Shown here one piece after another: positions 1-14,025 of a stretch of DNA of 14,025 nucleotides. The notes below the pieces were generated by a model. It was not told the origin of the DNA. It saw only the letters and a list, made by a program, of their open reading frames with translations, and made no database searches. Source of the stretch: an uncultured Actinomyces sp. (GTDB lineage Bacteria > Actinomycetota > Actinomycetes > Actinomycetales > Actinomycetaceae). Within the stretch, counting starts at the first letter, position 1. Every line of letters begins with the position of its first letter. The translations under genes and the position numbers were made by a program. The stretch spans positions 1 through 14,025 of the forward strand of contig CABKMZ010000044.1 of NCBI GenBank assembly GCA_902373545.1, in the 5' to 3' direction.

Positions 1-55
1 CTATGACGATGAGCGATAGCAAGCGTAGCGACGAGGCTAACGAAGGCCTCCTCTC
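1..55 (+). repeat. 55-bp direct repeat, copy 1 (start region of a lost gene)
   Basis: These bases are identical to 1120-1174; the match ends at base 56. The left boundary is unknown because the window starts inside the repeat. The repeat holds two in-frame ATG codons (3 and 9) followed by the codons for MSDSKRSDEANEGLLS. The first two bases are the end of a TAGACT box that is complete in copy 2. It therefore looks like a duplicated promoter-proximal end of a gene rather than a transposon end. Confidence 0.9.
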
Positions 56-263
56 TCTTCTCTCCCCCCGCTCTCCCCCAAAAGTCGCACGTAATTTGGG
101 TACCCTCACTTTTCTTAGGTATCGAGAAAACCGCAGAATTTCAACGATCCCATTTCAAAACTTGAAATACACGAAGGGGAATTACGTGCGACATTTCTGG
201 GAAACCACTCCAGCGAGGCGGCTGGCAGCACGACAACACCGGGCCAGATCTATCTCAGCCTGA
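9..263 (+). pseudogene. 5' gene fragment fused to the 109-bp repeat element
   Basis: An open frame of 84 codons begins MSDSKRSDEANEGLLS in the 55-bp repeat, runs through a polypyrimidine tract and then straight through the 109-bp inverted-repeat element to a stop at 263. Only about the first 16 residues are shared with the copy at 1128. The rest is a translation of the repeat element and its flank (KVARNLGTLTF and so on), which is also open in the same phase in the second element copy. I read this as a gene start whose body was replaced when the element arrived or the locus rearranged. A real small protein cannot be excluded, but no known domain is visible. The ATG at 9 is preferred because in copy 2 the matching ATG lies 6 nt after TAGACT. 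Confidence 0.35.
78..216. repeat. Dispersed palindromic element (MITE-like), copy 1; core 84-192
   Basis: This 139-bp block matches 1530-1668 with 7 mismatches by eye. Its 109-bp core begins GTCGCACGTAATT (84-96) and ends with the exact reverse complement AATTACGTGCGAC (180-192). The arms extend imperfectly to about 21 bp (18 of 21). Inside lie a GGGTACCC palindrome, a TTTTCT/AGAAAA inverted repeat and an ATTTCAA/TTGAAAT inverted repeat, so a transcript could fold into an outer stem with two or three inner hairpins. No transposase is present and no target-site duplication is evident. It could be a non-autonomous mobile element, a REP-type repeat, or a structured RNA or regulator site. Confidence 0.75.
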
Positions 264-408
264 CGACAGTAGCCCCGAGCCGCCCACACTCGCACACCTC
301 GCCTACAGTCGCTGCAGCCTCACGCACACTGGGCCGCCCACACTCGCGCCACCTTTGCCAACGCTTTCTGTGCCCTCACACATAACGCCGACCACCGCGG
401 GCCACACC
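217..408. other. Intergenic stretch without a gene
   Basis: Between the first repeat element and the DUF1697 stop I see no credible coding region. A 15-bp word GCCGCCCACACTCGC occurs twice (279-293 and 333-347) within C-rich, CACACT-rich sequence. No convincing terminator for the DUF1697 gene was found here. Confidence 0.5.
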
Positions 409-951
409 TCACCCCCGCGAGAGCATCGCCGCGATTTTTTCGACCGTCGAGCCACTGCGGATCGTCACCTCGCGATAGAAGTCCTCGCGCAGAAGGCGCT
501 TGTGGTAGGCGGTCTTGAGGAATTGTTTTTCGTCAAATTTGGCCCAAAATACGGCGTGCTCGCCGAAGTGGACGGCTTCGTCGCCCAGCTCCATTGCCTC
601 GATACGCTGGCGCACGTGATCTCGGTCCAGTCCACGCGTGTAGAACAGGGCGTCGCGGCGTGCCACATCGCCGTGCCACCAGTCGGGCAGCTCATCGAGC
701 TGAGCAAGGTAGTCCTGCGCCGTCAGGAGCGCCACTCGGATCGGGAAGTCGTAGCGGCATGCCAGGAGGTTCTCGACCCTCTGAGCAACATCCTCACACG
801 GGGCATCGGCCTCGAAGAGGAGGTTGCCGCTGTTGATGTAGGTGCGCACGTTCGCGTAGCCCACGCCGGCGACCTGCTCGCGCAGCTCGCTCATGACGAC
901 CTTGTTCTTGCCGCCAACGTTGATGCCGCGCAGCAGAGCCACGTACTCCAC
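409..951 (-). CDS. DUF1697 family protein
   Basis: A 180-residue protein of the DUF1697 family, whose biochemical function is not established. The family signature is clear near the N-terminus: YVALLRGINVGGKNKV (residues 3-18), then a TYINSGNLLFEA block, an FPIRVALLTAQDYLAQL segment and a GEHAVFWAKF stretch near the middle. The length fits the family (about 180 aa), so the gene appears intact. The frame is open further upstream to 1074, with an ATG at 966. I chose the GTG at 951 because GGGAGG lies 6 nt before it, and the protein then starts just before the conserved YVALLRGINVGG. It is one of few genes here with a plain Shine-Dalgarno start. It stands alone between repeats, with a possible promoter at 1011-1040. 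Confidence 0.88.
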   Translation of the reverse strand: MEYVALLRGINVGGKNKVVMSELREQVAGVGYANVRTYINSGNLLFEADAPCEDVAQRVENLLACRYDFPIRVALLTAQDYLAQLDELPDWWHGDVARRDALFYTRGLDRDHVRQRIEAMELGDEAVHFGEHAVFWAKFDEKQFLKTAYHKRLLREDFYREVTIRSGSTVEKIAAMLSRG

Positions 952-1010
952 GCTGATCCTCCCCATCTGTGGTGACACTTCGCCGTCGGACGCTCCAGGC
1001 CGCCCATCGA

Positions 1011-1040
1011 AAACTACGGAACGAGAATGCCTGGCTGTAA
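1011..1040 (-). promoter_or_regulatory. Possible promoter of the DUF1697 gene
   Basis: Read on the minus strand, TTACAG (1040-1035) is followed after 18 nt by TAGTTT (1016-1011), about 60 nt upstream of the GTG at 951. The boxes are loose matches to a housekeeping promoter and the spacing is acceptable. This is a sequence-only guess. Confidence 0.3.
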
Positions 1041-1112
1041 GACGCGAGCGGATACGACGCAGCCCCGGGAGCATGCATCAAGCAGAGGCCACCCCGGGGC
1101 ATCCACTGGCAA

Positions 1113-1121
1113 TGGTAGACT
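1113..1121 (+). promoter_or_regulatory. Extended -10 box TGGTAGACT of the relic gene
   Basis: TG-G-TAGACT is followed by 6 nt and then ATG at 1128. This is the spacing expected when transcription starts on the A of the start codon (leaderless mRNA). No Shine-Dalgarno is visible. The last bases of the box are inside the 55-bp duplicated repeat. Confidence 0.45.
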
Positions 1122-1174
1122 ATGACGATGAGCGATAGCAAGCGTAGCGACGAGGCTAACGAAGGCCTCCTCTC
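1120..1174 (+). repeat. 55-bp direct repeat, copy 2
   Basis: Identical to 1-55. It spans the end of the TAGACT box, two ATG codons (1122 and 1128) and 15 to 16 further codons. The distance between copies (1119) differs from that between the 109-bp elements (1452). The two repeat types were therefore not duplicated together as one block. Confidence 0.9.
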
Positions 1175-1214
1175 GTTCATTACCGAGCCCCGTCTTCAAG
1201 TGGACCTTGAGTGA
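1128..1214 (+). pseudogene. Short leaderless reading frame, probable truncated gene start
   Basis: From ATG 1128 a 28-codon frame reads MSDSKRSDEANEGLLS followed by FITEPRLQVDLE and a stop at 1212-1214. The -10 box TAGACT sits 6 nt before the ATG. The product is acidic and too short for a recognisable domain. Because the same first codons are duplicated at position 9 with a different continuation, it is most likely the remaining 5' end of a gene whose body decayed or was lost. A genuine micro-protein is the alternative. Confidence 0.35.
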
Positions 1215-1529
1215 AGAAGGTGAGCGCATAGTCGGCCCTCACTTCAAAGGCAGCCGACAGAAGAAGGTGGTCCTCCTAACTTCGTATCGAGATGAACAGA
1301 ATCCACAGCAGAAGGATGGGCACATCGTTCTTCCACACGAAATTCCCCACAAGGAGTCGGGCAGAGGGAGCGGCTTTGTTCGCCAACACAGGTATACATC
1401 CCTTCACCGGCTCCAGTCAGCAGCAACAACGGCAGACCTCTAGAGTCCCTGTGACGGCCCCACCTACAGATAATTTCTCACATCATCGATACTACCTTCG
1501 GAGTGCTCACAAATAGTGGCATGCCCACT
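1215..1529. other. Gene-poor stretch, possible decayed gene
   Basis: Visibly less GC-rich than the flanking genes. Several short open frames exist (one on plus from a TTG at 1207 to 1443, one on minus 1244-1429), but none shows a known motif, a good start signal or family-like composition. It may be the decayed body of the gene whose start remains at 1128, or imported DNA. I see no RNA gene here. Confidence 0.4.
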
Positions 1530-1668
1530 CCAAAAGTCGCACGTAATTTGGGTACCCTTACTTTTCATAGGTATCGAGAAAACCGCAGAATTTCAACGAT
1601 CCGATTTCAAACCTTGAAATACACGCGGGGGAATTACGTGCGACATTTCTGGGGAACCACTCCAGCGA
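1530..1668. repeat. Dispersed palindromic element (MITE-like), copy 2; core 1536-1644
   Basis: This is the second copy of the element at 78-216, in the same orientation and with the same 109-bp core length. Both 13-bp terminal arms are unchanged (GTCGCACGTAATT at 1536-1548, its reverse complement at 1632-1644). The ATTTCAA/TTGAAAT inner arms are also unchanged, and one of the differences falls in the 3-nt spacer between them. The ATTTCAA hairpin and the outer stem thus look better preserved than the rest. Confidence 0.75.
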
Positions 1669-1700
1669 CGCCAGCTGCACGCGACGGCCGACACAACAGC

Positions 1701-1892
1701 ACGAGGGGCGCCACACCCCTTACGAGGCGCCACACCCCTTACGAGGCAGTGCACCCCATACGAGGCACTACACCCCTTACGGGGCACTACACCCCTTACG
1801 GGACACCACACCCGTTTCGAGGCACTACACCCGTTACGAGGCACTGCACCCGATCAGAAGGGGTGTAATGCCTACGGATCGGGTGCAGCGCC
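1701..1892. repeat. 19-bp tandem repeat array with inverted terminal units
   Basis: Eight direct units run from 1701 to 1854. Seven are 19 bp and the first is 21 bp; a typical unit is ACGAGGCACTACACCCCTT. They are followed by two units in inverted orientation (1858-1873 and 1878-1892). Unit 8 (1840-1854) can pair with 1878-1892 in 14 of 15 positions, and unit 4 matches the reverse complement of 1858-1873 in 15 of 16. The array could fold into alternative long hairpins. It may be a minisatellite, an iterated protein-binding site or a structural element. There are no spacers, so it is not a CRISPR array. Confidence 0.85.
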
Positions 1893-2203
1893 CCCAATCA
1901 CAAGAACAAACGCGGAATCTGCGAGACGCGGGCCAGGCTGCGGTGCCCGTGGGCGGTGGCGGGGCCTGGCCGGGCAACGCACAAACAACGAGCCCGACCG
2001 ATTGGAGGCCGCCGCGGGGCCTGCGGGGCCTGGCCGGGCTTCGAGCCGACGCGCCGAGCGAAGCTCGCGGCGCGGACGGCGAGCGGGCGGGCAGGCCACG
2101 CGGCGGCCGGAGATCTGTCGAGGCAACGAGCAACACGCAGCCGCCCGGCTCCATCGGGACCGGGCGGCACACACGTCAGGCGACAGCTGTCAGAAACCGC
2201 AGC
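1893..2203. other. Very GC-rich stretch downstream of cysS, no gene seen
   Basis: No credible gene is visible. The word GGGGCCTGGCCGGGC occurs twice (1961-1975 and 2025-2039). A bulged inverted repeat with a GAGC-GAA-GCTC core lies at 2051-2073 and a stronger hairpin at 2140-2168. Open frames that cross this stretch on the plus strand are continuations of the antisense shadow of cysS and show no motif. Confidence 0.5.
2140..2168 (-). terminator. Possible cysS terminator hairpin
   Basis: GCCGCCCGG (2140-2148) and CCGGGCGGC (2160-2168) are exact inverted repeats with an 11-nt loop, about 35 nt past the cysS stop. There is no clear U-run on the minus strand, so it may be a GC-only terminator or an mRNA-end stabiliser. 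Confidence 0.4.
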
Positions 2204-3661
2204 TCAGCCGACGCTCCAGGTGGCGCCGTCGCGGCCGTCTGCGACGGTGACGCCGGCGGCGGCCAGGCGGTCGCGCAGCTCGTCGGCGCGCGCCCAGTCC
2301 TTGGCGGCGCGCGCAGCGGCCCGCTCGGACAGCACGGATCGAACCAGCGCGTCCAGCGCCGAATGCTCGGCGGCAGCCGCACCGGAGGCGCCCGCGCCGA
2401 TACCGGCCTGGCCGCGCCACTGCTCCGAAGCGGGGTCCAGGCCCAGCACGTCCAGCATGGAGCGAACCAGGACCTGCTCGCGGTACACACCGGAAACGTC
2501 ACCGGCAGCAAGCGCGGCGTTACCGGCCTTGAGGTGCTCGTGCAGGACGGCGAGCGCGCCGGCGACGTTGAGGTCGTCGTCCATGGCGGCGACGAAGGCC
2601 TCGGGCAGGTCGGCGGGGCTCAGGGTAATCTCGGAGACCGGAGCCTCCCCGGCGGCTTCGATCGCGCGGGCCACGAAGGTGGAGAACTTCTCCCAGGCGG
2701 CGTGCGCGGCGGGCAGCGTCTCGGCACCCCATTCGATGGCGGAGCGGTGGTGGACGGTCGACAGGGCCCAGCGCACGGCGACGGCCGGGTACTCCTCGGT
2801 GAGCGCGCCGATGGACAGGACGTTGCCCAGGGACTTGGACATCTTCTCGCCCTTGGTGGTCACCCACGCGTTGTGGACCCACAGGCGCGCGAAAGGCCAG
2901 CCGGCGCCGTGGGACTGGGCCTGCTCGTTCTCGTGGTGCGGGAAGCGCAGGTCGATGCCGCCGCCGTGGATGTCGAATTCGTCGCCGAGGTAGCGACGCG
3001 ACATGGCGGAGCACTCGAGGTGCCAGCCGGGTCGGCCGCGCCCCCAGGGGCTGTCCCACGAGGCCGTGGCTGGCTCGCCGGGCTTGGTGGCCTTCCACAG
3101 GGCGAAGTCGCGGGGGTCGCGCTTGCCGGCCTCAACGGCTTCGTCGATCTGGGCGTCGTCTTCGGTGGTACGCATGTCGGCCAGGCGCTGGCGGGTGAGC
3201 GAGCCGTAGTCGGCCTGGGAGTGGACGTCGAAGTAGACGTTGCCGCGCCCATCCGAGTAGGCGTGGCCGGCGTCGATGAGGCGCTGGACGAGGTCGAGCT
3301 GCTCGGGGATGTGGCCGGTGGCGCGCGGCTCGTAGGTGGGGGCCTCGACGCCGAGAGTCTCGTACGCCTGCGTGAACTCGCGCTCAAAGCGGTACGCCCA
3401 GGCCCACCACTCCCAGCCAGCCTCGGCCGATTTGTTCAGGATCTTGTCGTCGATGTCGGTGACGTTACGGACGTAGGTGACCTCGTACCCGCTGCGGCGC
3501 AGCCAGCGGATCAGGGTGTCGAAGGACACGGCGGCGCGCAGGTGGCCGACGTGCGGGGATCCCTGCACGGTGGCGCCACACAGGTAGATGCCGACCTTCC
3601 CGGGGGTGACCGGGGTGAGGGGCTGGACGCGGGCGCTCTTGGAGTCGTACAGGTGAAGCAT
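2204..3661 (-). CDS. cysS: Cysteinyl-tRNA synthetase
   Basis: A cytoplasmic class I aminoacyl-tRNA synthetase of 485 residues that charges tRNA-Cys with cysteine using ATP. Visible signatures are the HIGH-type motif HVGH at 37-40 and KMSKS at 273-277. The zinc ligands appear as C28, C217, H242 and E246; these keep the spacing of the E. coli ligands C28, C209, H234 and E238. The protein is full length and somewhat longer than the E. coli enzyme. I chose ATG 3661 ([12 protein letters not shown]) over an in-frame ATG 20 codons upstream because family members start here and TAGGAT lies 7 nt before it. The gene follows thrC on the same strand after 145 bp that contain a large hairpin, so it probably has its own promoter. 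In many actinobacteria cysS lies next to ispF and ispD; here ispF is nearby but on the opposite strand. Confidence 0.97.
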
Positions 3662-3668
3662 GGCATCA

Positions 3669-3674
3669 ATCCTA
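3669..3674 (-). promoter_or_regulatory. Candidate -10 box TAGGAT of cysS
   Basis: On the minus strand TAGGAT is followed by 7 nt and the ATG of cysS, the layout of a leaderless or near-leaderless transcript. The same bases could instead be read as a weak AGGA ribosome-binding site. No clear -35 box is seen. Confidence 0.4.
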
Positions 3675-3724
3675 CCTGGCGGGGCGAGGCAGGGAGGGAT
3701 GCGGGCACTGCCCGGAAACATGTA

Positions 3725-3785
3725 ACGAGGCCTGGGTCCCCTCCCCGAAAACCGCGCGGGTTCGCAGGTGGGGCCCAGGCCTCGT
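3725..3785 (-). terminator. Long hairpin between thrC and cysS
   Basis: ACGAGGCCTGGG (3725-3736) and its exact reverse complement (3774-3785) form a 12-bp stem. It can continue with four more G-C pairs past one bulged base, and it encloses about 30 nt that contain CCGCGCGG. It begins about 21 nt past the thrC stop and is followed on the minus strand by a modestly T-rich stretch. It is most likely the thrC terminator. I see no T-box or other riboswitch signature before cysS. Confidence 0.6.
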
Positions 3786-3806
3786 GACGAGTGAGCGGAA
3801 GCGAGC

Positions 3807-5264
3807 TCAGGCGCCGGGGCGCACGCGCTCGCGGATGAGGGCCTTGAGGTCCTCGGCGGAGTTGGCCAGCGCCGTGACGCGCTCTTCGCGTCCTTCGATG
3901 CCTTCGAAGCGCGCGGGGACGGGCGGCAGGTGGCCGGTAGCCTCGAGGATGGTGTCGGCGAACTTGACGGGCAGGGCGGTCTCCATGACGACGAGCGGCC
4001 CCTCGATCTGCGGGCGCACCGCGCGGGCGACGTGCACGCCGTCGGCCGTGTGCGGGTCGAGGAGGTAGCCGCTTTCCTTCTCCGTGCGCGCGATTTCCGC
4101 GAGACGGTCGGCGTGGGAGGAGGTGCCGGAGGTGAAGCCGTAGGTGTCGCGCAGGGAGGCGAACTCGGGCGTGCCGGACAGGTCGAAGTAGCCGTCGCGG
4201 GCCAGCGCGGTCTCGAAGAGCTCGCGGGTGGCGTCCCCGTCGCGGCCCAGCAGGTCGAAGATGAAGCGCTCGAAGTTCGAGGCCTTGGAGATGTCCATGG
4301 ACGGGCTGGAGGTGGCCAGCGTGTCCGCGGAGGAGCGGGGGCGGTAGACGCCGGTGCGGAAGAACTCGTCGAGGACGTCGTTCTCGTTGGTGGCGACGAC
4401 GAGGGTGCCCAGCGGCACGCCCATCTGGCGGGCGATGTGGGCGGCGCACACGTTGCCGAAGTTGCCCGACGGCACGACGACGCTGACCGTGGACGAGGCG
4501 TCGGCCCCCTCCTCGGTGACGCGCAGCCAGGTGGCCACGTAGTAGCAGACCTGGGCGAGCAGGCGCGCCCAGTTGATGGAGTTGACGGCGCCCACGTGCC
4601 AGGTGGCCTTGAAGTCGGCGTCCATGTTGATGGCCTTGACGAGGTCCTGGCAGTCGTCGAAGACGCCGTCGACGGCGACGTTGACGATGTTGTCGTCGAG
4701 GAGGGAGAACATCTGGGCGCGCTGGAAGGCGGTCATGCGTCCGGCGGGGGTGAGCATGACGACGGAAAGTCCGGGGCGGCCGCGCAGCGCGTATTCGGCG
4801 GAGGAGCCGGTGTCGCCGGAGGTGGCGCCCACGATGGTCAGCCAGTCGCCGCGGCGGGTCAGCTCGTATTCGAAGAGTTCACCGAGGAGCTGCATCGCCA
4901 TGTCTTTGAACGCGGCGGTGGGGCCGTTAGAGAGGTGGGCGATGTGCAGGTCGGTACCTTCGAGGGCGTCGACGGGCACGATCTGCGGGTCGGAGAAGGA
5001 GGGGGTGGAGTATGCCCGGGCCGTGATCGCGCACAGGTCGTCGGCGCTGATGTCGTCGACGAACAGCGAGAGGATGCCGGCGGCCATGGCCGCGTAGCCT
5101 TCCTCGCGCAGGACGATACGCAGCTCGTCCAGGTCGGCGGGCGACAGAGTCGGGTATTCCTCGGGCAGGTAGAGGCCGCCGTCGGGCGCCAGGCCCTCCA
5201 GCAGGATGTCGCTGAAGGAGCGGGTGGGCGCATCGGGGCCACGTCGAGTCGAAATATAACGCAC
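3807..5264 (-). CDS. thrC: Threonine synthase
   Basis: A pyridoxal-phosphate enzyme of 485 residues that converts O-phosphohomoserine to threonine and phosphate, the last step of threonine synthesis in the cytoplasm. The N-terminal block MRYISTRRG and [17 protein letters not shown] is typical of the long (corynebacterial/E. coli-like) ThrC class. The cofactor lysine is K120 in [14 protein letters not shown], and the phosphate-binding SGDTG loop is at 149-153. Length and ends look complete. The start is a GTG at 5264 with TAGGAT exactly 6 nt upstream and no clear Shine-Dalgarno, suggesting a leaderless mRNA. It is divergent from paralog 1 across a 124-bp spacer and upstream of cysS on the same strand. 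No homoserine dehydrogenase or kinase gene is in the window. Confidence 0.97.
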
Positions 5265-5270
5265 GGGCAG

Positions 5271-5276
5271 ATCCTA
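5271..5276 (-). promoter_or_regulatory. Candidate -10 box TAGGAT of thrC
   Basis: On the minus strand TAGGAT-CTGCCC-GTG places the box 6 nt before the start codon, as in leaderless actinobacterial genes. The same hexamer precedes cysS. No convincing -35 is visible. Confidence 0.45.
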
Positions 5277-5373
5277 TCGGAGAGACGGCCTGTGAAGCCA
5301 GATAGGTCGTATTTCGTCACGTTTCCACGAGGCCTGGGCGGGGTGGGTGGTGTACGCGCGGCCCGCGAGCGTG

Positions 5374-5382
5374 TGATAGAAA
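5374..5382 (+). promoter_or_regulatory. Extended -10 box of paralog 1 (leaderless)
   Basis: TGATAGAAA followed by CAACGG and the GTG start at 5389. The same block with the same 6-nt gap precedes all five paralogs. No -35 or ribosome-binding site is evident. Confidence 0.6.
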
Positions 5383-5388
5383 CAACGG

Positions 5389-6981
5389 GTGAGTATTGAC
5401 AAGGATCGTTGGGCACCGCCGATTGAGGGCGAGAAGTCAGGAAGGCCGTCGCCATCTCAGGCGACACGTCCGTCAAACACGCCGCCCCGTAACGCTGACA
5501 CATCGGTCAACCCCGATGTGATCGAGGATTCATACACGACAGCAATCACGGCGACGCTGCCTGACGAGAGTGTCGATTCGTCGAGGCGTCGGGCCTTTCG
5601 AGCGCGCGCTACGCGCGCCGGGTCGAGTGTGAGGAGCTCGTCCTCATTCACGACGGCATCCAAGGGGTGGGGGACTCTTGCCGTGGTTGTTTTCATCGCC
5701 GCTCTCTTCGGGGCGATCGCCTTGCGAACGTCGGCCGGTTCGTCGTCACTGGCGACGCCTCGTTCCCAGGGTTATACGGGCACGGCGACCAACACGGCGA
5801 CGCTGTCCTCCGCATGGGCCTCAGGGATCGAGGCGGCGTGGGTGCTCCCCGTCGACCCGGACAGAGCAACCAGCGAGCTACAGTCCGTCCTCGTCGAGGG
5901 CACGACCCTGTACGTGACGATCAAGACGCAGGACAAGGGCCTGAGGGTGAGCGCCTACGACATTGCTTCCGCCCAGCCCGTGCAGACATGGGTGACGGAT
6001 GGTCAGGACATTGAGGTGCGCGGCAGGTTTGGCGGGCCTCGGATGATCTCTGCGGGGGCTTGGTTAGCCGTTGAGAATGTCCTGGTGTCCAAGGAGACGG
6101 GCAGGCAGCAGGAGGCACCGTGGGGCGAGGACATCCCGGCTGCTTTCGTCGACGAGGTCTTGGTGACGTGCTCGGGTCTTGAGACGTGTTCCGGGTGGAC
6201 GAACCAGTCCGGTTCGTGGACGCGCCAGTGGCAGAGCATCACGGCGAGGCAGTCGTCGTCGAGTGACTTTTGGAAGGGCATCCATTCGCTCGTCGTCGGA
6301 AGCGGCGAGGAGTCTTCACTGCTCGTTCCCGTCGAGTCCTTCCGCCATAACCCTCAGCTGGTGAACGTCCACACGGGCGTGGTCGCCACCCTGGGCGCCG
6401 ACGGTCGCCTGGGGTCAGGCTCGCGGGTTGTGAAGCTCTACGACGCCTCTGACGGGGTCATCGTGGAGCGGGATCGGGGCGAGATGGAGGTCTACGACGT
6501 CTCGGGAAGGCTCGTTGATACCTTCGACCCGGTGAGGCACAACACGCAGCCGACGTTGGACGGTCGCGCGCCCACGGTGGCGGAGTTGAGAGGTTTCTTC
6601 ACGGAGGTGTCAGCCCCCTGGACGACGGGCAGGGTGACGATCGAGAAGGAGGATTGCTCTGTTGTCAGGCTGAATCCCACCGGTGATTTCCCCCCGCGTT
6701 CGGCGACGGGCGTGAAGGGGCTGACCACCTACTATTCCTACACCTCAAAGACCTGCTCCTTTGAGCCGCGCGAGCTTCGCGCCAGCACCGACGGGTCTGC
6801 GGCGTTCATCTGGGTCGCGACATGGAGCACATCCACCGCGTACATGATCGACATGAATGCCAATAAGACGCACACTTTCTCAGGCCTGACGCGCTCGACG
6901 AAAACCGTGTGGGCGTTCGACGACCTGCTCATCACGATCAGCGATGATGGCATCACGGCCTTCACACCGGCCTCGTCGTGA
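5389..6981 (+). CDS. Paralog 1: single-pass membrane protein with propeller-like exodomain
   Basis: A 530-residue protein with no named family I can assign. Residues 1-92 are polar, Ser/Pro-rich and end in a basic stretch (SRRRAFRARATR); residues about 94-112 form one hydrophobic helix. The rest should lie outside the cell, since the basic side stays in. The exodomain opens with GYTGTATNTATLSSAWASG and shows repeated strand-turn units such as VLVEGTTLYV, LRVSAYDIA and DGITAFTPASS, which resemble a PQQ-like beta-propeller. Four cysteines (261, 267, 423, 456) match those of the other paralogs and may form disulfides. It is the most divergent full copy: its N-terminus is short and lacks the LPDLAP hexads. 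The GTG start is set by the conserved promoter module. ispF follows after 15 nt. Confidence 0.8.
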   Translation: MSIDKDRWAPPIEGEKSGRPSPSQATRPSNTPPRNADTSVNPDVIEDSYTTAITATLPDESVDSSRRRAFRARATRAGSSVRSSSSFTTASKGWGTLAVVVFIAALFGAIALRTSAGSSSLATPRSQGYTGTATNTATLSSAWASGIEAAWVLPVDPDRATSELQSVLVEGTTLYVTIKTQDKGLRVSAYDIASAQPVQTWVTDGQDIEVRGRFGGPRMISAGAWLAVENVLVSKETGRQQEAPWGEDIPAAFVDEVLVTCSGLETCSGWTNQSGSWTRQWQSITARQSSSSDFWKGIHSLVVGSGEESSLLVPVESFRHNPQLVNVHTGVVATLGADGRLGSGSRVVKLYDASDGVIVERDRGEMEVYDVSGRLVDTFDPVRHNTQPTLDGRAPTVAELRGFFTEVSAPWTTGRVTIEKEDCSVVRLNPTGDFPPRSATGVKGLTTYYSYTSKTCSFEPRELRASTDGSAAFIWVATWSTSTAYMIDMNANKTHTFSGLTRSTKTVWAFDDLLITISDDGITAFTPASS

Positions 6982-6984
6982 GAC

Positions 6985-6990
6985 TACCCT
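6985..6990 (+). promoter_or_regulatory. Candidate -10 box TACCCT of ispF
   Basis: TACCCT-GGTGGC-ATG gives the 6-nt spacing of leaderless genes and lies entirely in the 15-nt gap after paralog 1. No strong Shine-Dalgarno is present. ispF may also be read through from paralog 1. Confidence 0.4.
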
Positions 6991-6996
6991 GGTGGC

Positions 6997-7500
6997 ATGA
7001 CTGATCTGCCTTTCCGCGTCGGCCAAGCGGTCGACGTCCACGCCTTCGCAGCCCCCGATTCGCAGCGCACCCTCATGCTCGCGTGCTTGGAGTGGCCGGG
7101 CGAGCGCGCGCTTGAGGGTCATTCGGACGCGGACGTCGCCGCGCACGCGTTGTGCGACGCGATGCTGCTGGCCACGGGCCTGGGTGAGCTCGGCACGGTG
7201 TTTGGCGTGGATCGCCCGGAGTGGGCGGGCGCGTCGGGCCGCGCGATGCTCCAGGAGGTGCGCCGCATGGCGACCGAGGCCGGCTGGGTGCTCGGCAACG
7301 CGACCGTGCAGGTCGTGGGCAACCGCCCGCGCATGGCCGCACGCCTGCCCGAGGCCGGTGCCGTCATGAGCGAGATCGCCGGCGGCACGGTGACGGTGTC
7401 GGCGACGACCTCGGATCGCCTGGGTTTCACGGGCCGAGGCGAGGGCGTGGCCGCGCTGGCGAGCGTCCTCATGGTCCGGGTCGCCCCCGCATCCAACTAG
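6997..7500 (+). CDS. ispF: 2-C-methyl-D-erythritol 2,4-cyclodiphosphate synthase
   Basis: A 167-residue enzyme of the MEP isoprenoid pathway that cyclises CDP-methylerythritol 2-phosphate to the cyclodiphosphate with release of CMP. It acts in the cytoplasm, normally as a trimer. Metal-site residues are visible as D13 and H15 (RVGQAVDVH) and H50 in [15 protein letters not shown]. The C-terminal [18 protein letters not shown] block is the family's nucleotide-binding and closing motif. The usual GDIG or GDLG reads GELG (63-66) here, a conservative change. Length is normal, so the gene looks functional. Its usual partner ispD is absent from the window, and ispF is enclosed by members of the membrane-protein array. 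This is unusual and suggests insertion of the array around a housekeeping gene. Confidence 0.95.
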
Positions 7501-7554
7501 ACGCGGATCCCCACGCCGGCCCGACGCGGGACAAGCACGCCGACGCTCCTCGCA

Positions 7555-7563
7555 TGATACAAA
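7555..7563 (+). promoter_or_regulatory. Extended -10 box of paralog 2 (leaderless)
   Basis: TGATACAAA followed by CGTCCC and ATG 7570. It differs from the other four boxes by one base (C for G). Confidence 0.55.
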
Positions 7564-7569
7564 CGTCCC

Positions 7570-9480
7570 ATGAGTAACGATGATTCTCGCGTGACGCCTC
7601 CCGGCAATGCGCAGCCGCGTTCGTCGCGCGCACGCGGCGAGGAGTCCCCGAGCGGGGCCGACGCCTTCGTCCTGCCCGAGTTCGATTCCCTGCCGGACTT
7701 GGCACCGCTGCCCGACCTTGACGAATTCTTGAAGGCCGACCCACTCGCAGGATTCGACGAGGCCGTGGCCGCGCAGGCGGACACCATCAGTTCGCGCGAC
7801 GATGACGCACTCCCAAGCGCCGCGCCCGCAGGCGACATCCCATCGCTGCCCACGAGTCCGTCGACGCCCGCGGTTCCATCGCTGCCCACGAGTCCGTCGA
7901 CGCCCGCGGTCCCATCGCTGCCCGCGGTCTCGACCACACCGACGCAGAACACAGCTCCGACGTTCACCGTCGCCCCCTCCCAGGCCGATGCCGCACCCAC
8001 TCACGCAGCCCCGGCCTCGTCACGAACCAGTCCTGCCCAAGAACCGAACGAACGCGTCGCTCACCCTACGGGTCGACTGTCCTGGGGCGAGCAGAGGACC
8101 ACGAGTTCCGCCATCCCCATCGGTCTGGCGATCTCCGGTGCCATCGTCGTACTCAGCGGCATTATTTCCTCGGTCTACGCGGGCGGCAGCAATCACAAGC
8201 ATCCCACGCTCCCTCCACCGGACCTCGACACGAAACAGCAGGTCCTCCACGTGCCCGGATACCGTGGGGCCGCGACGAACACGCATTCCCTGTCGCCCGA
8301 GTGGGCCTCGGGCGTCGCCACTGCGTGGACGATCCCCACCACGAACGGGCCGGCGGGGACACCGCCGCAGATATACGTCGACGGGTCGGTCCTCTACCTC
8401 GCCGCCGACGATCTGACGGAGGACCGGAAGGAATCGGCCGTCACGGTGTCAGCCTATGACCTGTCGGGAAACGAACCCACTCTCCTGTGGACAACAACGG
8501 GTCCGACGGAGAACTCGGCGATTATGTCCTCCCACACGCCCGCGTTCCTCTCGGATGACGACCAGGTCTTTTTCCACGACGTCGTCATCGACAAGGCCAC
8601 GGGCGCGCAAACCCAGGCTCCCTGGAAGAGGGATTATCCTCTCGCGGTGGCCGACGACATCGTGGTGACGTGCTCGGCCACAACATCATGCGCCGGATGG
8701 ACGCGCGAGGGTAGCGAGTGGACAAACCTGTGGACGACGACCACGGCGATACAGTCGGGATTCGGGTTGCATAACCATGATCTGGGCTACGCACCTGCGG
8801 GCACTGCGCTCGCCGGGAGCGGCGCACAGGCCGCCGTCCTGGTCCCCACCGCCATCAAGGAACTCCCGCAGGTCCTCAACGTCCATACCGGCGAGGTAAC
8901 GACCCTGAACAATCCCGACGGGAATGCCGACTATCGGAAGGTCGAGGTGGCCACCGACGGCTTCCTCGTCTACGAGCGCAGCGAACAGGTCGGGTTACTC
9001 TTCGAACCCAGCGGGACCCTCCAGTCCACGTTCACAGCAGAGCCGCACCTGCCGACAGTCAGCCACGACGGGAGGCAGCCAACGACGTCGGACATCCACA
9101 CCTTCATGACAAGCACGAAGGCACAGTGGGCGGCGGGCACGATTGCGCTGACAGGCACGGACCAATGCGCCATCGAGTACAAGCTGACCGCCGACAGCGC
9201 CACACACACGATCTCCATCCCCTCAGCGGCACGCCCGGATATGCAGCCGGGCTGCTACTTCGACCCGGCCGACGCGCGTGTCAGCGTCGACGGATCGGCT
9301 CTCTACATCGACACCTTCAACTTCCAGGACACGAGCAAATATTTCATCGACACCGCCAAGGGACTGTCCTTCACGTCGAATGAACTCAACGAGGCCACAC
9401 ACCTCACCTGGGTCTTCGACGACATGCTGATCGGCCAGACCGACGGCGGAATTCGAGCGTTCGTGCCTGCCTCCTCCTGA
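7570..9480 (+). CDS. Paralog 2: single-pass membrane protein with propeller-like exodomain
   Basis: A 636-residue protein of the same unnamed family. It begins MSNDD, has three six-residue hexads (LPEFDS, LPDLAP, LPDLDE; 35-52), then a long Pro/Thr/Ser/Ala-rich region that includes two and a half 12-residue repeats (PSLPTSPSTPAV, 91-120). One hydrophobic helix lies at about 181-203. The exodomain starts GYRGAATNTHSLSPEWASG (230-248) and contains the conserved FFHDVVIDKATG, GWTREGSEWTNLW and VLNVHTGEV blocks, ending FDDMLIGQTDGGIRAFVPASS. Cysteines at 368, 374, 533 and 562 are shared with the family. There is no signal peptide, lipobox or sortase motif. The role is unknown; a surface-exposed binding or sensing propeller is inference. 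The start follows the shared promoter module. Confidence 0.82.
   Translation: MSNDDSRVTPPGNAQPRSSRARGEESPSGADAFVLPEFDSLPDLAPLPDLDEFLKADPLAGFDEAVAAQADTISSRDDDALPSAAPAGDIPSLPTSPSTPAVPSLPTSPSTPAVPSLPAVSTTPTQNTAPTFTVAPSQADAAPTHAAPASSRTSPAQEPNERVAHPTGRLSWGEQRTTSSAIPIGLAISGAIVVLSGIISSVYAGGSNHKHPTLPPPDLDTKQQVLHVPGYRGAATNTHSLSPEWASGVATAWTIPTTNGPAGTPPQIYVDGSVLYLAADDLTEDRKESAVTVSAYDLSGNEPTLLWTTTGPTENSAIMSSHTPAFLSDDDQVFFHDVVIDKATGAQTQAPWKRDYPLAVADDIVVTCSATTSCAGWTREGSEWTNLWTTTTAIQSGFGLHNHDLGYAPAGTALAGSGAQAAVLVPTAIKELPQVLNVHTGEVTTLNNPDGNADYRKVEVATDGFLVYERSEQVGLLFEPSGTLQSTFTAEPHLPTVSHDGRQPTTSDIHTFMTSTKAQWAAGTIALTGTDQCAIEYKLTADSATHTISIPSAARPDMQPGCYFDPADARVSVDGSALYIDTFNFQDTSKYFIDTAKGLSFTSNELNEATHLTWVFDDMLIGQTDGGIRAFVPASS
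7840..7929 (+). repeat. 36-bp in-frame tandem repeat inside paralog 2
   Basis: Units at 7840-7875 and 7876-7911 are identical apart from the last base, followed by a shortened third unit (7912-7929). They encode PSLPTSPSTPAV repeats in the disordered region before the membrane helix. Such repeats often change copy number between strains without breaking the frame. Confidence 0.85.
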
Positions 9481-9554
9481 GAGCGCACTGCTCACAGGGG
9501 GCGAGGCCTCGGCTGACGAAAGCGGAGAACCCACGCCCGCGTTCCACACGGGTG

Positions 9555-9563
9555 TGATAGAAA
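9555..9563 (+). promoter_or_regulatory. Extended -10 box of paralog 3 (leaderless)
   Basis: TGATAGAAA followed by CGTCTC and ATG 9570, in the 89-bp gap after paralog 2. Confidence 0.6.
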
Positions 9564-9569
9564 CGTCTC

Positions 9570-9900
9570 ATGAGCAACGACGATGTCCTCGGAACCCCCG
9601 CCGACGGGACGCAGGCACCCTCCGCGCGCTCGCGGGAGGAGGAATCCCCGGACAGCGGCGGCGTCTTCGCGCTGCCGGAGTTCGGGACACTGCCGGGCTT
9701 CGCGCCGCTGCCCGAACTCGCCCCGCTGCCGGATCTGGCCCCGCTGCCCGATATCGGTGACGTCCTCTCCTCCCCCGCGTCGATGCCCGGGGACGAGGCC
9801 CGGGCCGGGCAGGCGGATACCGCGGGATCTCGGGATGACGACCTGTTCCCGGGCGCCTCTCCCCTGCCCGGGATCTCGCCGCTACCTGACATCGCCCAGC
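9570..9900 (+). repeat. 331-bp near-identical 5' block shared with paralog 4 (copy 1)
   Basis: Matches 11718-12048 with four base differences by eye, all in the first 105 bp. Similarity drops abruptly after the codons for SPLPDIAQ. Confidence 0.9.
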
Positions 9901-11600
9901 TACTCGCAGACGCTCCCACCTCGTCCACCGTCGACGACACTCAACCCGTTGCGCCAGAGTCCAGGCCTCTCTCAGATACCGCTCCGACGCCCACCTCCGC
10001 TCACCTGCCGGACGCGGCTTCCTCGGCCTCGGCGGCCGCCACCCAGATGGATACCGTCTCCGCGGTCGCGGCCACGGCCTCGTCGCTGGCTGGACACGTG
10101 AGCGGCCGATCGTCGAGCGGCCGCACTCCCTTCCGCCTCAAGCCCGAGGAGAGCATCGGCGAGGCTGCCTCCGCCCTCAAACGCCTGCCCCGCCCCCTGA
10201 TCGCGCTCGGATGCGTCGTTGTGCTCGGCGTCGTGCTCTCTTTCTGCAGCCAACAAAGCGTCGAACCGATGACCTCGTCGACTCCGTCGCCTACGGTCTC
10301 CTCGGCGCGGTCCTCGCAGACGCCGACCGTGCAGGTGCCCGCGCAGGCACCGAATCTGCCTACTCGCGCGCCCGGCTACCGTGGGACCGCGACGAACACG
10401 CACGCACTGTCGCCCGAGTGGGCCTCGGGGATCGCGACCGCGTGGACGATTCCCGTTGAGAACACCTCGTCCACGTTCCTGCCACACATTTACGTCGATG
10501 GCTCGACCCTCTACGTTGCGTCCAACGCCACCATCAAGGGCGAGCCAGGGTACGCCGTCACTATTGCTGCCTACGACATATCGGGGGAACAGCCCACTCA
10601 GCTGTGGTCCTCAACCGGGCACACGAAAAACAACGTGGCCTTGACGTACACGCCCACCTTCTTGTCAAGCGACGACCAGCTCTTCTTCCACGACGTCGTC
10701 ATCGACAAGAAGACCGGCGAGCAAACCCAGGCCCCCTGGGGCATAGCGTTTCCCCTCGTGATGGCCGACGGCATCCTCGTGACCTGCTCGTCAACAACGA
10801 CGTGCAGCGGATGGACGCAGGAGGGCGGCGAGTGGACGAACCTGTGGACCACGACGACGACGCAGCAAAATCCGTCGGGGTTCCGTCAGCTCGACCTCGG
10901 ATACTCGCCCTCACGTAACGCTATTTCCGGCAGCGGCGAGCACACCTCCGTCCTGGTTCCTCCCAAGAGCGACCAGATTCCACAGATCATCAATATCCAC
11001 ACGGGGACAATCGCGTCCCTGAGCAACCCCGACGGGGACGGCAAGTTCCGAACCGTCGAGGTCACGCCCGAAGGCTACGTCGTCTACGAGAATATCGAAT
11101 CCTACGGGATGCTCTTCGACAGCGACGGCACCCTCCAGTCCACGTTTAAGACCGCCCGCAACCTGCCCATCGTCAGTCACGATGAGACACCTCGCAGCGC
11201 GCCGGACGTCAAAGAGTTCCTGACACACCAGAACGCGCCGTGGGCCGTAGCTACCCTGCGCATGACTGGCAGTCACCAGGATGAGTGCATGTTCGAGGTC
11301 ACCTTCACCGCCGACGGTTCGACGCGTACGGCCCCCGTCCCCGATGCGCTGACGCCCAGCTTGCCGTCCACCTGCTTCTTCGACCCGAAGCAGGTGAGTA
11401 TCAGCGCCGACGGATCGGCTCTGTACATGGACGCCTTCGTCGGTGCCGACACGAACAAATACGTCATCGACACCGTCAACGGCGAGGCCTACACGTCTCC
11501 GGCGCTCAACGTCTCGGAACAGCTCACCTGGGTCTACGACGACATGCTGATCGGCGCCAGCAAGACGGGAGTCACGGCCTTCGTGCCGGCGTCCTCCTGA
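9570..11600 (+). CDS. Paralog 3: single-pass membrane protein with propeller-like exodomain
   Basis: A 676-residue family member. Residues 1-207 are acidic and proline-rich, with five LPDLAP-type hexads (35-64) and a second LPGISP/LPDIAQ patch near 98-110. The hydrophobic helix is at about 208-226 and carries two extra cysteines (215, 226). The exodomain begins GYRGTATNTHALSPEWASG (269-287) and has the family's FFHDVVIDKKTG, CSSTTTCSGW, INIHTG and FVPASS blocks, with cysteines at 406, 412, 573 and 602. Its first 331 bp and last 75 bp are almost or fully identical to paralog 4, while the middle is diverged. This suggests recombination. Function is not recognised; propeller folding is judged from repeated short beta-strand patterns only. 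Confidence 0.82.
   Translation: MSNDDVLGTPADGTQAPSARSREEESPDSGGVFALPEFGTLPGFAPLPELAPLPDLAPLPDIGDVLSSPASMPGDEARAGQADTAGSRDDDLFPGASPLPGISPLPDIAQLLADAPTSSTVDDTQPVAPESRPLSDTAPTPTSAHLPDAASSASAAATQMDTVSAVAATASSLAGHVSGRSSSGRTPFRLKPEESIGEAASALKRLPRPLIALGCVVVLGVVLSFCSQQSVEPMTSSTPSPTVSSARSSQTPTVQVPAQAPNLPTRAPGYRGTATNTHALSPEWASGIATAWTIPVENTSSTFLPHIYVDGSTLYVASNATIKGEPGYAVTIAAYDISGEQPTQLWSSTGHTKNNVALTYTPTFLSSDDQLFFHDVVIDKKTGEQTQAPWGIAFPLVMADGILVTCSSTTTCSGWTQEGGEWTNLWTTTTTQQNPSGFRQLDLGYSPSRNAISGSGEHTSVLVPPKSDQIPQIINIHTGTIASLSNPDGDGKFRTVEVTPEGYVVYENIESYGMLFDSDGTLQSTFKTARNLPIVSHDETPRSAPDVKEFLTHQNAPWAVATLRMTGSHQDECMFEVTFTADGSTRTAPVPDALTPSLPSTCFFDPKQVSISADGSALYMDAFVGADTNKYVIDTVNGEAYTSPALNVSEQLTWVYDDMLIGASKTGVTAFVPASS
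9672..9761 (+). repeat. 18-bp periodic repeat encoding LPDLAP hexads (paralog 3)
   Basis: Five consecutive 18-bp units each begin CTGCC and encode LPEFGT, LPGFAP, LPELAP, LPDLAP and LPDIGD. Paralog 4 has the same five (11820-11909). Paralog 2 has three (7672-7725) and paralog 1 has none. Confidence 0.85.
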
Positions 11601-11611
11601 CGAGGCCGTGG
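11537..11611 (+). repeat. 75-bp identical 3' block shared with paralog 4 (copy 1)
   Basis: Identical to 13721-13795. It covers the last 21 codons, the stop and 11 bp beyond it, so identity extends into non-coding sequence. Confidence 0.9.
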
Positions 11612-11702
11612 TTGCTCCCGCGGCGATCGCTCGGCCTGCATCAGTCCATTGCTTGTCCTCACAAGGCCCGGGTTGCTCCTCACGTTGGTTGGCGTGCGGG
11701 TG

Positions 11703-11711
11703 TGATAGAAA
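11703..11711 (+). promoter_or_regulatory. Extended -10 box of paralog 4 (leaderless)
   Basis: TGATAGAAA followed by CGTTTT and ATG 11718, in the 117-bp gap after paralog 3. Confidence 0.6.
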
Positions 11712-11717
11712 CGTTTT

Positions 11718-12048
11718 ATGAGCAACGACGATGTCCTCGGAACCTCCACCGACGGGACGCAGGGACCCTCCGCGCGCTCGCGGGAGGAGGAATCCCCGGA
11801 CAGCGGCGGCGTCTTCTCGCTGCCGGAGTTCGGGACACTGCCGGGCTTCGCGCCGCTGCCCGAACTCGCCCCGCTGCCGGATCTGGCCCCGCTGCCCGAT
11901 ATCGGTGACGTCCTCTCCTCCCCCGCGTCGATGCCCGGGGACGAGGCCCGGGCCGGGCAGGCGGATACCGCGGGATCTCGGGATGACGACCTGTTCCCGG
12001 GCGCCTCTCCCCTGCCCGGGATCTCGCCGCTACCTGACATCGCCCAGC
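11718..12048 (+). repeat. 331-bp near-identical 5' block shared with paralog 3 (copy 2)
   Basis: Counterpart of 9570-9900. The four differences change Pro to Ser, Ala to Thr, Ala to Gly and Ala to Ser (residues 10, 11, 16 and 34). Confidence 0.9.
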
Positions 12049-13784
12049 CCCTCGCGGAAGATCCGACAGGGCCTGACAATGAGAAAGAGCCAATGGAGAG
12101 CGGCGTCGCCTGGCCCCAGGCCGAGGAAGCCCCGGCGCGGGACGTTCGCAGTGCCGCTGTGCTGGTCAGCACTTCCGTAAACGCATTCGAGCTGCTGCCA
12201 GACGAGACCACCTCGGAGGAGCCACAACATGCCTCGCGTGACGTTGCGTCCATAGCGGCCGCCACGGCCTCGTCGCGGAGGACGTCCGAAGGCGACCGGA
12301 CGCCGACTGCACTGCGCGCCCCAGACCTCGAGCCCTCGCGGACGTGGGTGGACAAGACAGCCGTAAAGCGGAAGCCGTCTGTCGTCATGATCGTGCTCGG
12401 CTGTATCCTCGCGCTCAACGTCGCGGTTTCCCTCTTCTCCCCCAGTCAGAGCGGATCGTCGTCGACGCCTTCGTCCCATCAGACCTCGTCGCGTTCCGCC
12501 GCACAGGCGAACTCCGAGGTACGCGAACATGCGGCGAACCTGCCGACCCGCGCGCCCGGGTACCGCGGGAGTGCCACGAACACACATTCCATATCGCCGC
12601 AGTGGTCCTCGGGCGTCGCCACCGCGTGGACGCTCGAGCTGCCGCCAGAAATGACTCAGTTCGGACCGCAGATGTTCGCCGAGGGTCAGGTCCTCTACAT
12701 CGCCGGCAACGACACGATCGAGGGCCAGCGCGGTTCCGCCGTCAGAACTCAGGCCTACGACCTGTCCGGGGAGGAACCCACCCTCCTGTGGGACACGGTC
12801 GGCCCCACGGAAAACTCCGCGATCATGACGTACACACCCGCGTTCGTGTCGAGCGAGACCCAGCTCTTTTTCCACGACGTAGTCATCGACAAGGCAACCG
12901 GCGAGCAGACACAGGCCCCGTGGGGCGATGATTTTCCCCTCGCGCAGGCCGACGGCATCGTGGTGACCTGTTCGACGACATCCTCGTGCCGCGGGTGGAT
13001 GCAAACCTCCGGCGAGTGGACGAATCTGTGGACGACGACAACGAATCCACAGACGTCCTACGGGTTGAGTAACCAGGGTTTGGGCTATGCGCCCGCAGGC
13101 ACCACGCGCTCCGGCACGGGTGAACTCGCCTCCGTCCTGGTCCCCTTCAACTATCAGGAAACCCCGCAGATCATCAACATCCATACCGGAAAGACAACGT
13201 ACCTGCCCAGCCCCGACCAGTCAGGCTTGGGCCAATACGTCGAGGTGGCGACCGACGGCTTCGTCGTCATAGACGTCAGCAAGAAGCAGGGGTTCCTCAC
13301 CGACAGCTCGGGGGCCCGCCAATCCACGTTCTCAACCGATGAATATCTGCGTCTACCCGCAGTCAGCCGTGACGGTAGCAACCCGAGCACTGCGGATATC
13401 AAGACCTTCATGACGACGAAGACTGCGAATTGGGCGACGGGCACGGTAGGCCTCGTGGGTAAGGACGACTGTTCCATCCAGGTCACCCTCACCTCCGACG
13501 GGTCGTCGCGCACGACTCCGGTCCCCGGCGTGCTGAGCCAGCACATGACCAGTACGTGCCTCTTCAGCCCGAAGGAGGTTCGCGTGAGCGCGGATGGTTC
13601 GGTCCTCTATGCCGATACCTTCACCTACCAGGACCAGAGCCGGTACTTCATCGATACCGCCAACGGGCTCACCTACACATCAAACCTTCTCAACCTGCCG
13701 AAACAGACCATGTGGGTCTTCGACGACATGCTGATCGGCGCCAGCAAGACGGGAGTCACGGCCTTCGTGCCGGCGTCCTCCTGA
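11718..13784 (+). CDS. Paralog 4: single-pass membrane protein with propeller-like exodomain
   Basis: A 688-residue family member, the longest complete one. The first 110 residues nearly equal those of paralog 3, including the five LPDLAP-type hexads. Residues 111-215 are then unique and acidic. A short basic patch (VKRKP) precedes the helix at about 220-240. The exodomain starts GYRGSATNTHSISPQWSSG (281-299) and carries the conserved FFHDVVIDKATG, CSTTSSCRGW, INIHTG, VSADGSVLYAD and FVPASS blocks; cysteines are at 418, 424, 585 and 614. No catalytic motif, signal peptide or anchor motif was found. The strongest reading is a type II membrane protein with an external propeller-like domain. The partner and ligand are unknown. 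Confidence 0.82.
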   Translation: MSNDDVLGTSTDGTQGPSARSREEESPDSGGVFSLPEFGTLPGFAPLPELAPLPDLAPLPDIGDVLSSPASMPGDEARAGQADTAGSRDDDLFPGASPLPGISPLPDIAQPLAEDPTGPDNEKEPMESGVAWPQAEEAPARDVRSAAVLVSTSVNAFELLPDETTSEEPQHASRDVASIAAATASSRRTSEGDRTPTALRAPDLEPSRTWVDKTAVKRKPSVVMIVLGCILALNVAVSLFSPSQSGSSSTPSSHQTSSRSAAQANSEVREHAANLPTRAPGYRGSATNTHSISPQWSSGVATAWTLELPPEMTQFGPQMFAEGQVLYIAGNDTIEGQRGSAVRTQAYDLSGEEPTLLWDTVGPTENSAIMTYTPAFVSSETQLFFHDVVIDKATGEQTQAPWGDDFPLAQADGIVVTCSTTSSCRGWMQTSGEWTNLWTTTTNPQTSYGLSNQGLGYAPAGTTRSGTGELASVLVPFNYQETPQIINIHTGKTTYLPSPDQSGLGQYVEVATDGFVVIDVSKKQGFLTDSSGARQSTFSTDEYLRLPAVSRDGSNPSTADIKTFMTTKTANWATGTVGLVGKDDCSIQVTLTSDGSSRTTPVPGVLSQHMTSTCLFSPKEVRVSADGSVLYADTFTYQDQSRYFIDTANGLTYTSNLLNLPKQTMWVFDDMLIGASKTGVTAFVPASS

Positions 13785-13795
13785 CGAGGCCGTGG
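13721..13795 (+). repeat. 75-bp identical 3' block shared with paralog 3 (copy 2)
   Basis: Counterpart of 11537-11611, including the stop codon and 11 bp of downstream sequence. Confidence 0.9.
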
Positions 13796-13818
13796 CGGGC
13801 CAGGGGAGAACCGCGTGA

Positions 13819-13887
13819 GCCTTCGACGGCATGGGCATCGGAATGACCGAGAGCGGTATCGAGGCGTTCGTCGCGGTGTCTTCCTGT
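13819..13887 (+). pseudogene. Relic C-terminus of a lost paralog
   Basis: Between paralogs 4 and 5 the plus frame reads FDGMGIGMTESGIEAFV and then AVSS (13822-13884). This lines up with the family's C-terminal end, for example FDDMLIGQTDGGIRAFV then PASS of paralog 2, with 13 of 21 positions equal. A stop codon lies just upstream in frame (13816-13818), and the usual TGA after the final serines is now TGT. No start or membrane helix remains. This is the degraded tail of a former array member. Confidence 0.7.
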
Positions 13888-13921
13888 TGTTGGGACCGGT
13901 TACCACGCCGCCATTACCCTG

Positions 13922-13930
13922 TGATAGAAA
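13922..13930 (+). promoter_or_regulatory. Extended -10 box of paralog 5 (leaderless)
   Basis: TGATAGAAA followed by CTACTC and ATG 13937. Confidence 0.6.
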
Positions 13931-13936
13931 CTACTC

Positions 13937-14025
13937 ATGAGCAATGACGATCATCCGGGCATGAACACTCCCCCGCAGGCCGAGCAGTGGGTGCCGCCGA
14001 GCGGGACGCCCCCAATCCCCCAGCC
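13937..14025 (+). CDS. Paralog 5 (partial, runs off the window)
   Basis: The frame from ATG 13937 reads MSNDDHPGMNTPPQAEQ followed by WVPPSGTPPIPQ and continues past the right edge. It shares the MSNDD start with paralogs 2-4, the proline-rich opening and the same promoter-start module. I therefore expect a long disordered N-terminus, one membrane helix and the propeller-like exodomain, but only 29 residues are visible. There are no LPDLAP hexads yet at this point, and the sequence after MSNDD differs from paralogs 3 and 4. Confidence 0.7.
   Translation, partial: MSNDDHPGMNTPPQAEQWVPPSGTPPIPQ

Follow-up and report, generated by a model that had tools for sequence, protein, structure and literature searches.

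By fold, the proteins described here resemble eight-bladed propellers such as BamB, YxaL, Rv3035 and the WD40 proteins, which are 8–18% identical to them in sequence without any significant sequence match, and these propellers are not known to form shuffled arrays. By profile, their exodomains are distantly related to the LRV_2 (PF25591) membrane propellers of Actinomyces, which often occur in tandem as well and with which they have in common an exodomain core with invariant W and C (W/C/G across 29 sequences). The proteins are encoded in a stretch of 14,025 nucleotides from an uncultured Actinomyces sp. (assembly GCA_902373545.1, contig CABKMZ010000044.1, positions 1 to 14,025 of the forward strand), hereafter the window, where they constitute a tandem array of predicted single-pass propeller proteins with mosaic copies that differ sharply between relatives. 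We interpret the array as a likely diversifying surface-recognition locus, with a probable part in the recognition or evasion of other microbes, a reading to which we give about an even chance of being right.

Four full copies were found as open reading frames (ORFs) on the plus strand, at 5389–6981 (copy 1, 530 aa), 7570–9480 (copy 2, 636 aa), 9570–11600 (copy 3, 676 aa) and 11718–13784 (copy 4, 688 aa), followed on the same strand by the first 29 codons of a fifth (13937–14025), which has a K-type N-terminus and is cut by the window end. This agrees with the first-pass annotation, made from the sequence letters, which had recognized four paralogs and a partial fifth. Their head-to-tail arrangement stood only in part: the copies are in tandem, but ispF (6997–7500, plus strand; TIGR00151, E 1e-37; PF02542), which that annotation had missed, begins 15 nt after copy 1 and separates it from copy 2, so that the run is not one family throughout and a purely head-to-tail array was rejected. 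The exodomains start at 5770, 8257, 10374 and 12558, respectively, and compared with that of copy 4, those of copies 1, 2 and 3 show 33, 57 and 55% identity. When the exodomains of 41 copies from the window and the loci of ten relatives were grouped by single linkage with a cutoff of 60% identity, 19 exotypes resulted, the four window copies being assigned to exotypes A, B, C and D.

In all four full copies the alignment bore out the proposed exodomain boundaries, an opening GYxGxATNT and a terminal AFxPASS. The single helix expected after a proline-rich N-terminus was found as well, since each copy has one hydrophobic segment whose best 19-residue window is preceded by 93–221 residues with 10–16% Pro. 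In the close family the topology was read from 40 of the 41 copies, one being dropped where the motif was not found; exactly one hydrophobic segment was present in 39, the sole copy without it being a frameshifted one in the locus L002, and the charge balance favored N-in in 32 copies and N-out in 4, with 4 ties. The exodomains are therefore treated here as predicted to be exposed at the surface. AlphaFold2 models of the copy 1 and copy 4 exodomains, distant as these two are, reached predicted local distance difference test scores of 88.8 and 88.5, and both contain 31 strands, read by hand as eight four-stranded blades with a 3+1 closure. A BamB/WD40-like propeller with eight blades (PQQ-like fold) is thus predicted, as the annotation had supposed in calling the family propeller-like.

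According to the copy 4 model, the tether joins the propeller where the outer strand of blade 8 begins, on the same side as the A-B and C-D turns, and from the strand order we infer that the membrane would lie opposite the D-A and B-C loops. Variability was compared between top and bottom loops in 41 sequences, using columns with at most 10% gaps and both loop shuffles and label rotations. The 16 top loops had a mean variability of 2.68 bits vs 1.47 bits in the 15 bottom loops, a difference reached by 0 of 20000 shuffles and 2 of 377 rotations. Orthologues of a single exotype behaved alike: variable positions among five D orthologues were 72/132 in top loops, 30/76 in bottom loops and 64/178 in strands (5 of 377 rotations), and among five J orthologues 72/125, 25/76 and 71/173 (6 of 377 rotations). 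According to the model, the variable face would point away from the membrane.

Shuffling is seen in copy 4, which confirms the mosaic ends reported earlier. Its first part, beginning near 11697 and running to 12053, hardly differs from copy 3; the next, which starts at 12054 and extends to about 12480, is unlike both copy 3 and the locus L001 of Actinomyces sp. HPA0247; and at 13722–13795 the gene is again similar to copy 3. Its exodomain shares 95.0% DNA identity with that of copy 2 of L001, whereas the N-terminal halves of the same two genes share 59.0%, against 93.1% for cysS and thrC. Similarly, the database protein P0003 has an exodomain 99.5% the same as that of copy 4 and an identical piece of transmembrane (TM) linker, with a different start. 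N-termini were compared in 128 proteins, namely 120 of 762 matches listed and eight from the window and the loci; in 16 of them, copy 4 included, the exodomain matched that of copy 4 with an identity of 95.5% or more, and these exodomains were joined to four N-terminal clusters among these listed matches (single linkage at 80%, with some N-termini shortened by the gene call). As judged from these comparisons, exodomains and N-terminal/TM halves recombine. Elsewhere, exotype C is joined to an N-terminal part of the copy-3 type in 4 of 5 proteins read, P0154 being too short; the 5' end is covered in just two of these proteins, P0151 and P0152, and is of copy-3 type in both (P0156 was not read). 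Since exotype C goes with this N-terminus in other proteins, the 5' end of copy 4 probably came from copy 3. A relic of 72 nt (13815–13886, plus strand), also proposed before, matches the 3' ends of the D-type copies of L002 and L003 with a score of 46, compared with best scores of 14 and 15 in 1000 shuffles, and is the 3' end of a lost D-type copy.

The tempo of change also differs between loci. Between the window and L001, synonymous divergence (dS) is 0.12 in exodomain D vs 0.27 in cysS, 0.21 in thrC and 0.40 in ispF, while between L002 and L003, the closest of five D-bearing loci compared, it is 0.47 vs 0.10, 0.13 and 0.06, or 3.6–7.8 times the flanks. By this estimate exodomain D is younger than the flanking genes in the first pair and much older in the second, which fits an exchange of alleles from a shared pool, and the data point to allele exchange at the exodomains. 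On the same dS contrast, fast point mutation alone was rejected as the source of diversity. The ratio of nonsynonymous to synonymous divergence (dN/dS) was 0.25–0.52 for exodomains in ten pairs vs 0.02–0.15 in three flanking genes, and three 50-codon windows, in two pairs, exceeded 1, a few windows being without a ratio. This ratio is elevated, which is not proof of positive selection.

Comparison of relatives revealed that the set of copies is not fixed. Where the contig permits, the common order is thrC(-)-copies-ispF-copies-MFS(-), the last being a major facilitator superfamily gene, and some loci have no copy after ispF. The number of copies varies from one (L037, L046) to eight (L034), which together with the 19 exotypes supports the suggestion of a diversifying tandem locus. 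Exotypes follow the order A-ispF-B-C-D in the window, E-ispF-D-F-G-H in L001, I-J-ispF-D-K-L in L002, J-ispF-D-M-G-H in L003 and N-O-ispF-D-M-K-L-P-Q in L034. For copies directly before ispF in ten loci (45 pairs), 32 pairs are 33–43% identical and 13 are 61–97% identical. The flanks of nine loci, compared with L001, are 91–98% (ispF), 90–96% (thrC) and 92–98% (cysS) identical, and cysS, thrC and ispF of the window are 97, 95 and 93% identical to L001 at the protein level, so that the window probably comes from an actinomycete of the Schaalia/Pauljensenia group.

Some of these assemblies deserve separate mention. In L002 (Schaalia sp. ORNL0103, 9028–10493) a K-type copy is frameshifted, with start and TM segment in one frame and exodomain in another; it may reflect a sequencing error, a pseudogene or switching, and frameshift switching, considered because of this copy, has nothing in its favor beyond that one assembly. 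The array of L040 (G146, 5915–10884) is fragmented, with runs of N and a nearby ORF that is transposase-like by appearance. The L003 record, JVKM01000044.1, is titled Xylanimonas cellulosilytica, a label that is probably wrong given that its cysS, thrC and ispF are 96–98% identical to those of L001.

A further property of the array is a start-proximal box on the plus strand, which reads TGATAGAAAC-N5-GTG before copy 1 (5374–5391) and is also located before copy 2 (7555–7572), copy 3 (9555–9572), copy 4 (11703–11720) and copy 5 (13922–13939). In the form TGATAGAAAC-N5-RTG it is exact at copies 1, 3, 4 and 5 and has one mismatch at copy 2, that is, five boxes in the window vs 0.20 expected from shuffles. 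This exact form gave six matches on searching six genomes, in four of them, and TGRTAGAAAC-N5-RTG gave 20 matches in nine whole genomes (reversed control, 0), all of which were placed by coordinates at start codons of array genes. Allowing up to two mismatches, the box precedes 29 of the 41 copies; among the other 12, four (three J and one O) start 3–10 nt after the stop of the preceding copy. The box implies that most copies carry their own control, and we take it, as a candidate only, to resemble the extended -10 element of a leaderless promoter. In L045, a more distant genome, three copies (5527–10536) share another box, TGACTGGATG-N5-ATG, and private boxes may therefore be specific to each lineage.

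Taken together, each full gene of the window consists of a start-proximal box private to the array, an N-terminal part that is variable and predicted to be cytosolic, a single predicted membrane helix, and the exodomain. We hypothesize that recombination in three places, namely the 5' end that the copies share, the linker preceding GYRG and the 3' end, would move an exodomain onto another N-terminal half, convert neighboring copies, and change the number of copies in either direction; its products are observed and the process is deduced from them. The most variable loops, opposite the tether, would point outward and meet ligands, and each strain would display its own set of propeller faces. 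Recognition is the proposed role, and the selecting agents would most plausibly be phages, Saccharibacteria epibionts or competitors. In a stronger form, the array would be a self-contained strain-identity code in which a private promoter drives varying combinations of outward faces and cytosolic halves, the faces being read as host receptors by phages or parasitic Saccharibacteria; we assign this a low probability, and if true it would explain strain-level host range in oral Schaalia.

Several results weigh against a diversifying recognition locus. No relative of the array proteins was found in 50,697 phage records. In 24 LRV_2 control proteins the top bias was also present, more weakly (0.62 vs 0.45 bits, a difference reached by 99 of 20000 shuffles and 3 of 377 rotations); part of the one-face bias may therefore be a common feature of the family or of propellers, and it is not claimed as unique to the array. 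The dN/dS of exodomains is below 1 overall. Strong concerted evolution of 3' ends was rejected, because their similarity within a genome (67%, 8 pairs) vs that in the remaining comparison (59%, 36 pairs) was reached by 240 of 5000 permutations. Finally, the order of copy classes is partly kept, with D types first, G or K later and then H or L, and in all 12 loci where ispF is complete there is a copy ahead of it; both points speak for a degree of division of labor.

The last observation also bears on a different explanation, in which the propellers are envelope-assembly scaffolds that hold envelope enzymes together, as Rv3035 does in mycobacteria with FecB and AftB, and vary with cell-wall glycans that differ from strain to strain. 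It is favored by the constant neighborhood of ispF, an isoprenoid gene, and by Rv3035 and BamB being among the structural matches of the models; Rv3035 matches by fold and is not among the listed matches of the profile searches of Protein Data Bank sequences. The eight-bladed mycobacterial propeller MMAR_1667/Rv3035 works with FecB and AftB, in a predicted complex (PMC12802301). We consider this rather unlikely as the role of the array. Alternatively, the copies could be an immunity or decoy bank collected by recombination, each acting at the cell surface to neutralize a toxin, bacteriocin or phage protein. High-turnover tandem paralogs are typical of such banks, and the invariant residues show nothing enzyme-like; against it, there was no PADLOC match, and no toxin was recognized among the neighbors identified (thrC, cysS, ispF, MFS, ispD, carD and gpm), not every ORF having been scanned. 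We find it quite unlikely. Neutral birth and decay, with duplicates drifting under relaxed constraint and without a recognition role, would suit the dN/dS below 1, the relic and the frameshifted L002 copy, but it is very unlikely in view of the frames that stay open in all four copies of the window and in most relatives, the W/G/C core invariant in 29 relatives, the change concentrated on one face, the L002/L003 dS far above the flanking genes and the private box being kept.

The remaining window holds cysS (2204–3721) and thrC (3807–5264), both on the minus strand, and spacers from thrC to copy 5 measure, in order, 124, 15, 69, 89, 117 and 152 nt. Also on the minus strand is a gene that we take to be DUF1697-like, a 180-aa piece of which had no match in the NCBIfam search. 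Between it and cysS, at 1713–1851, a 19-bp unit is repeated in tandem (7.3 copies), and the ORF translations at 3–263 and 1503–1868 have a stretch in common (KVARNLGTLTF-RYRENRRIST...), which suggests a repeated intergenic element. No Rfam match was obtained, and scans yielded 0 sigma-70 sites and 5 terminator sites vs 3.3 expected.

A diversifying recognition locus would be of interest for epibiont biology. The means by which these epibionts recognize and attach to their hosts are described as largely unknown (PMC12206443), and the host range of TM7x differs between strains (PMC7784981). The host-range study tested sequence variants solely in core gene clusters present as a single copy (PMC7784981), and such a test would not cover an array of several copies. 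The locus is not named in the passages that a search by term gave from the XH001 transcriptome and transposon sequencing papers (PMC10768705, PMC12369343), nor in a literature search, mostly without subscription papers, for a prior description or link; the array could not be matched to the APY09 locus tags of strain XH001. The array would represent a hypervariable, modular, receptor-like family in the genus hosting the model epibiont TM7x, and it offers a short list of deletable candidates for determining the host range of phages and epibionts.

With respect to known families, the annotation's description of the array proteins as unrecognized held, since no model of Pfam (up to E 1), NCBIfam, PADLOC or PHROGs matches any of the four copies. 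A characterized non-surface family was also looked for, and no significant sequence match was obtained; the best profile hits among Protein Data Bank sequences had E 0.78 and, to an NHL propeller, 0.013. Relatives were matched at E ≤ 0.001 in 46 of 213 genomes of the family and at E ≤ 1e-10 in 9 of 396 genomes of the order, all nine being matched in the family search too; because few candidates were scored per genome in both searches, copy counts from them are floors. The weaker matches are Actinomyces-type relatives, and their neighbors, listed as ORFs without a family scan, offered no usable clue. The LRV_2 N-terminal domain, which 4 of the 6 such distant proteins that were scanned possess, as do 24 of 30 among the matches listed, is absent from the window copies, and the LRV_2 proteins fetched are about 20% identical to the array proteins and have no linkage to ispF. 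Recombining bacterial surface-protein arrays are also a close kind of system, with tandem paralogs, mosaics, cassette turnover and a relic copy, as here. Unlike them, the present array combines a predicted N-in single-pass propeller with swapping of N-terminal halves and an array-private start box.
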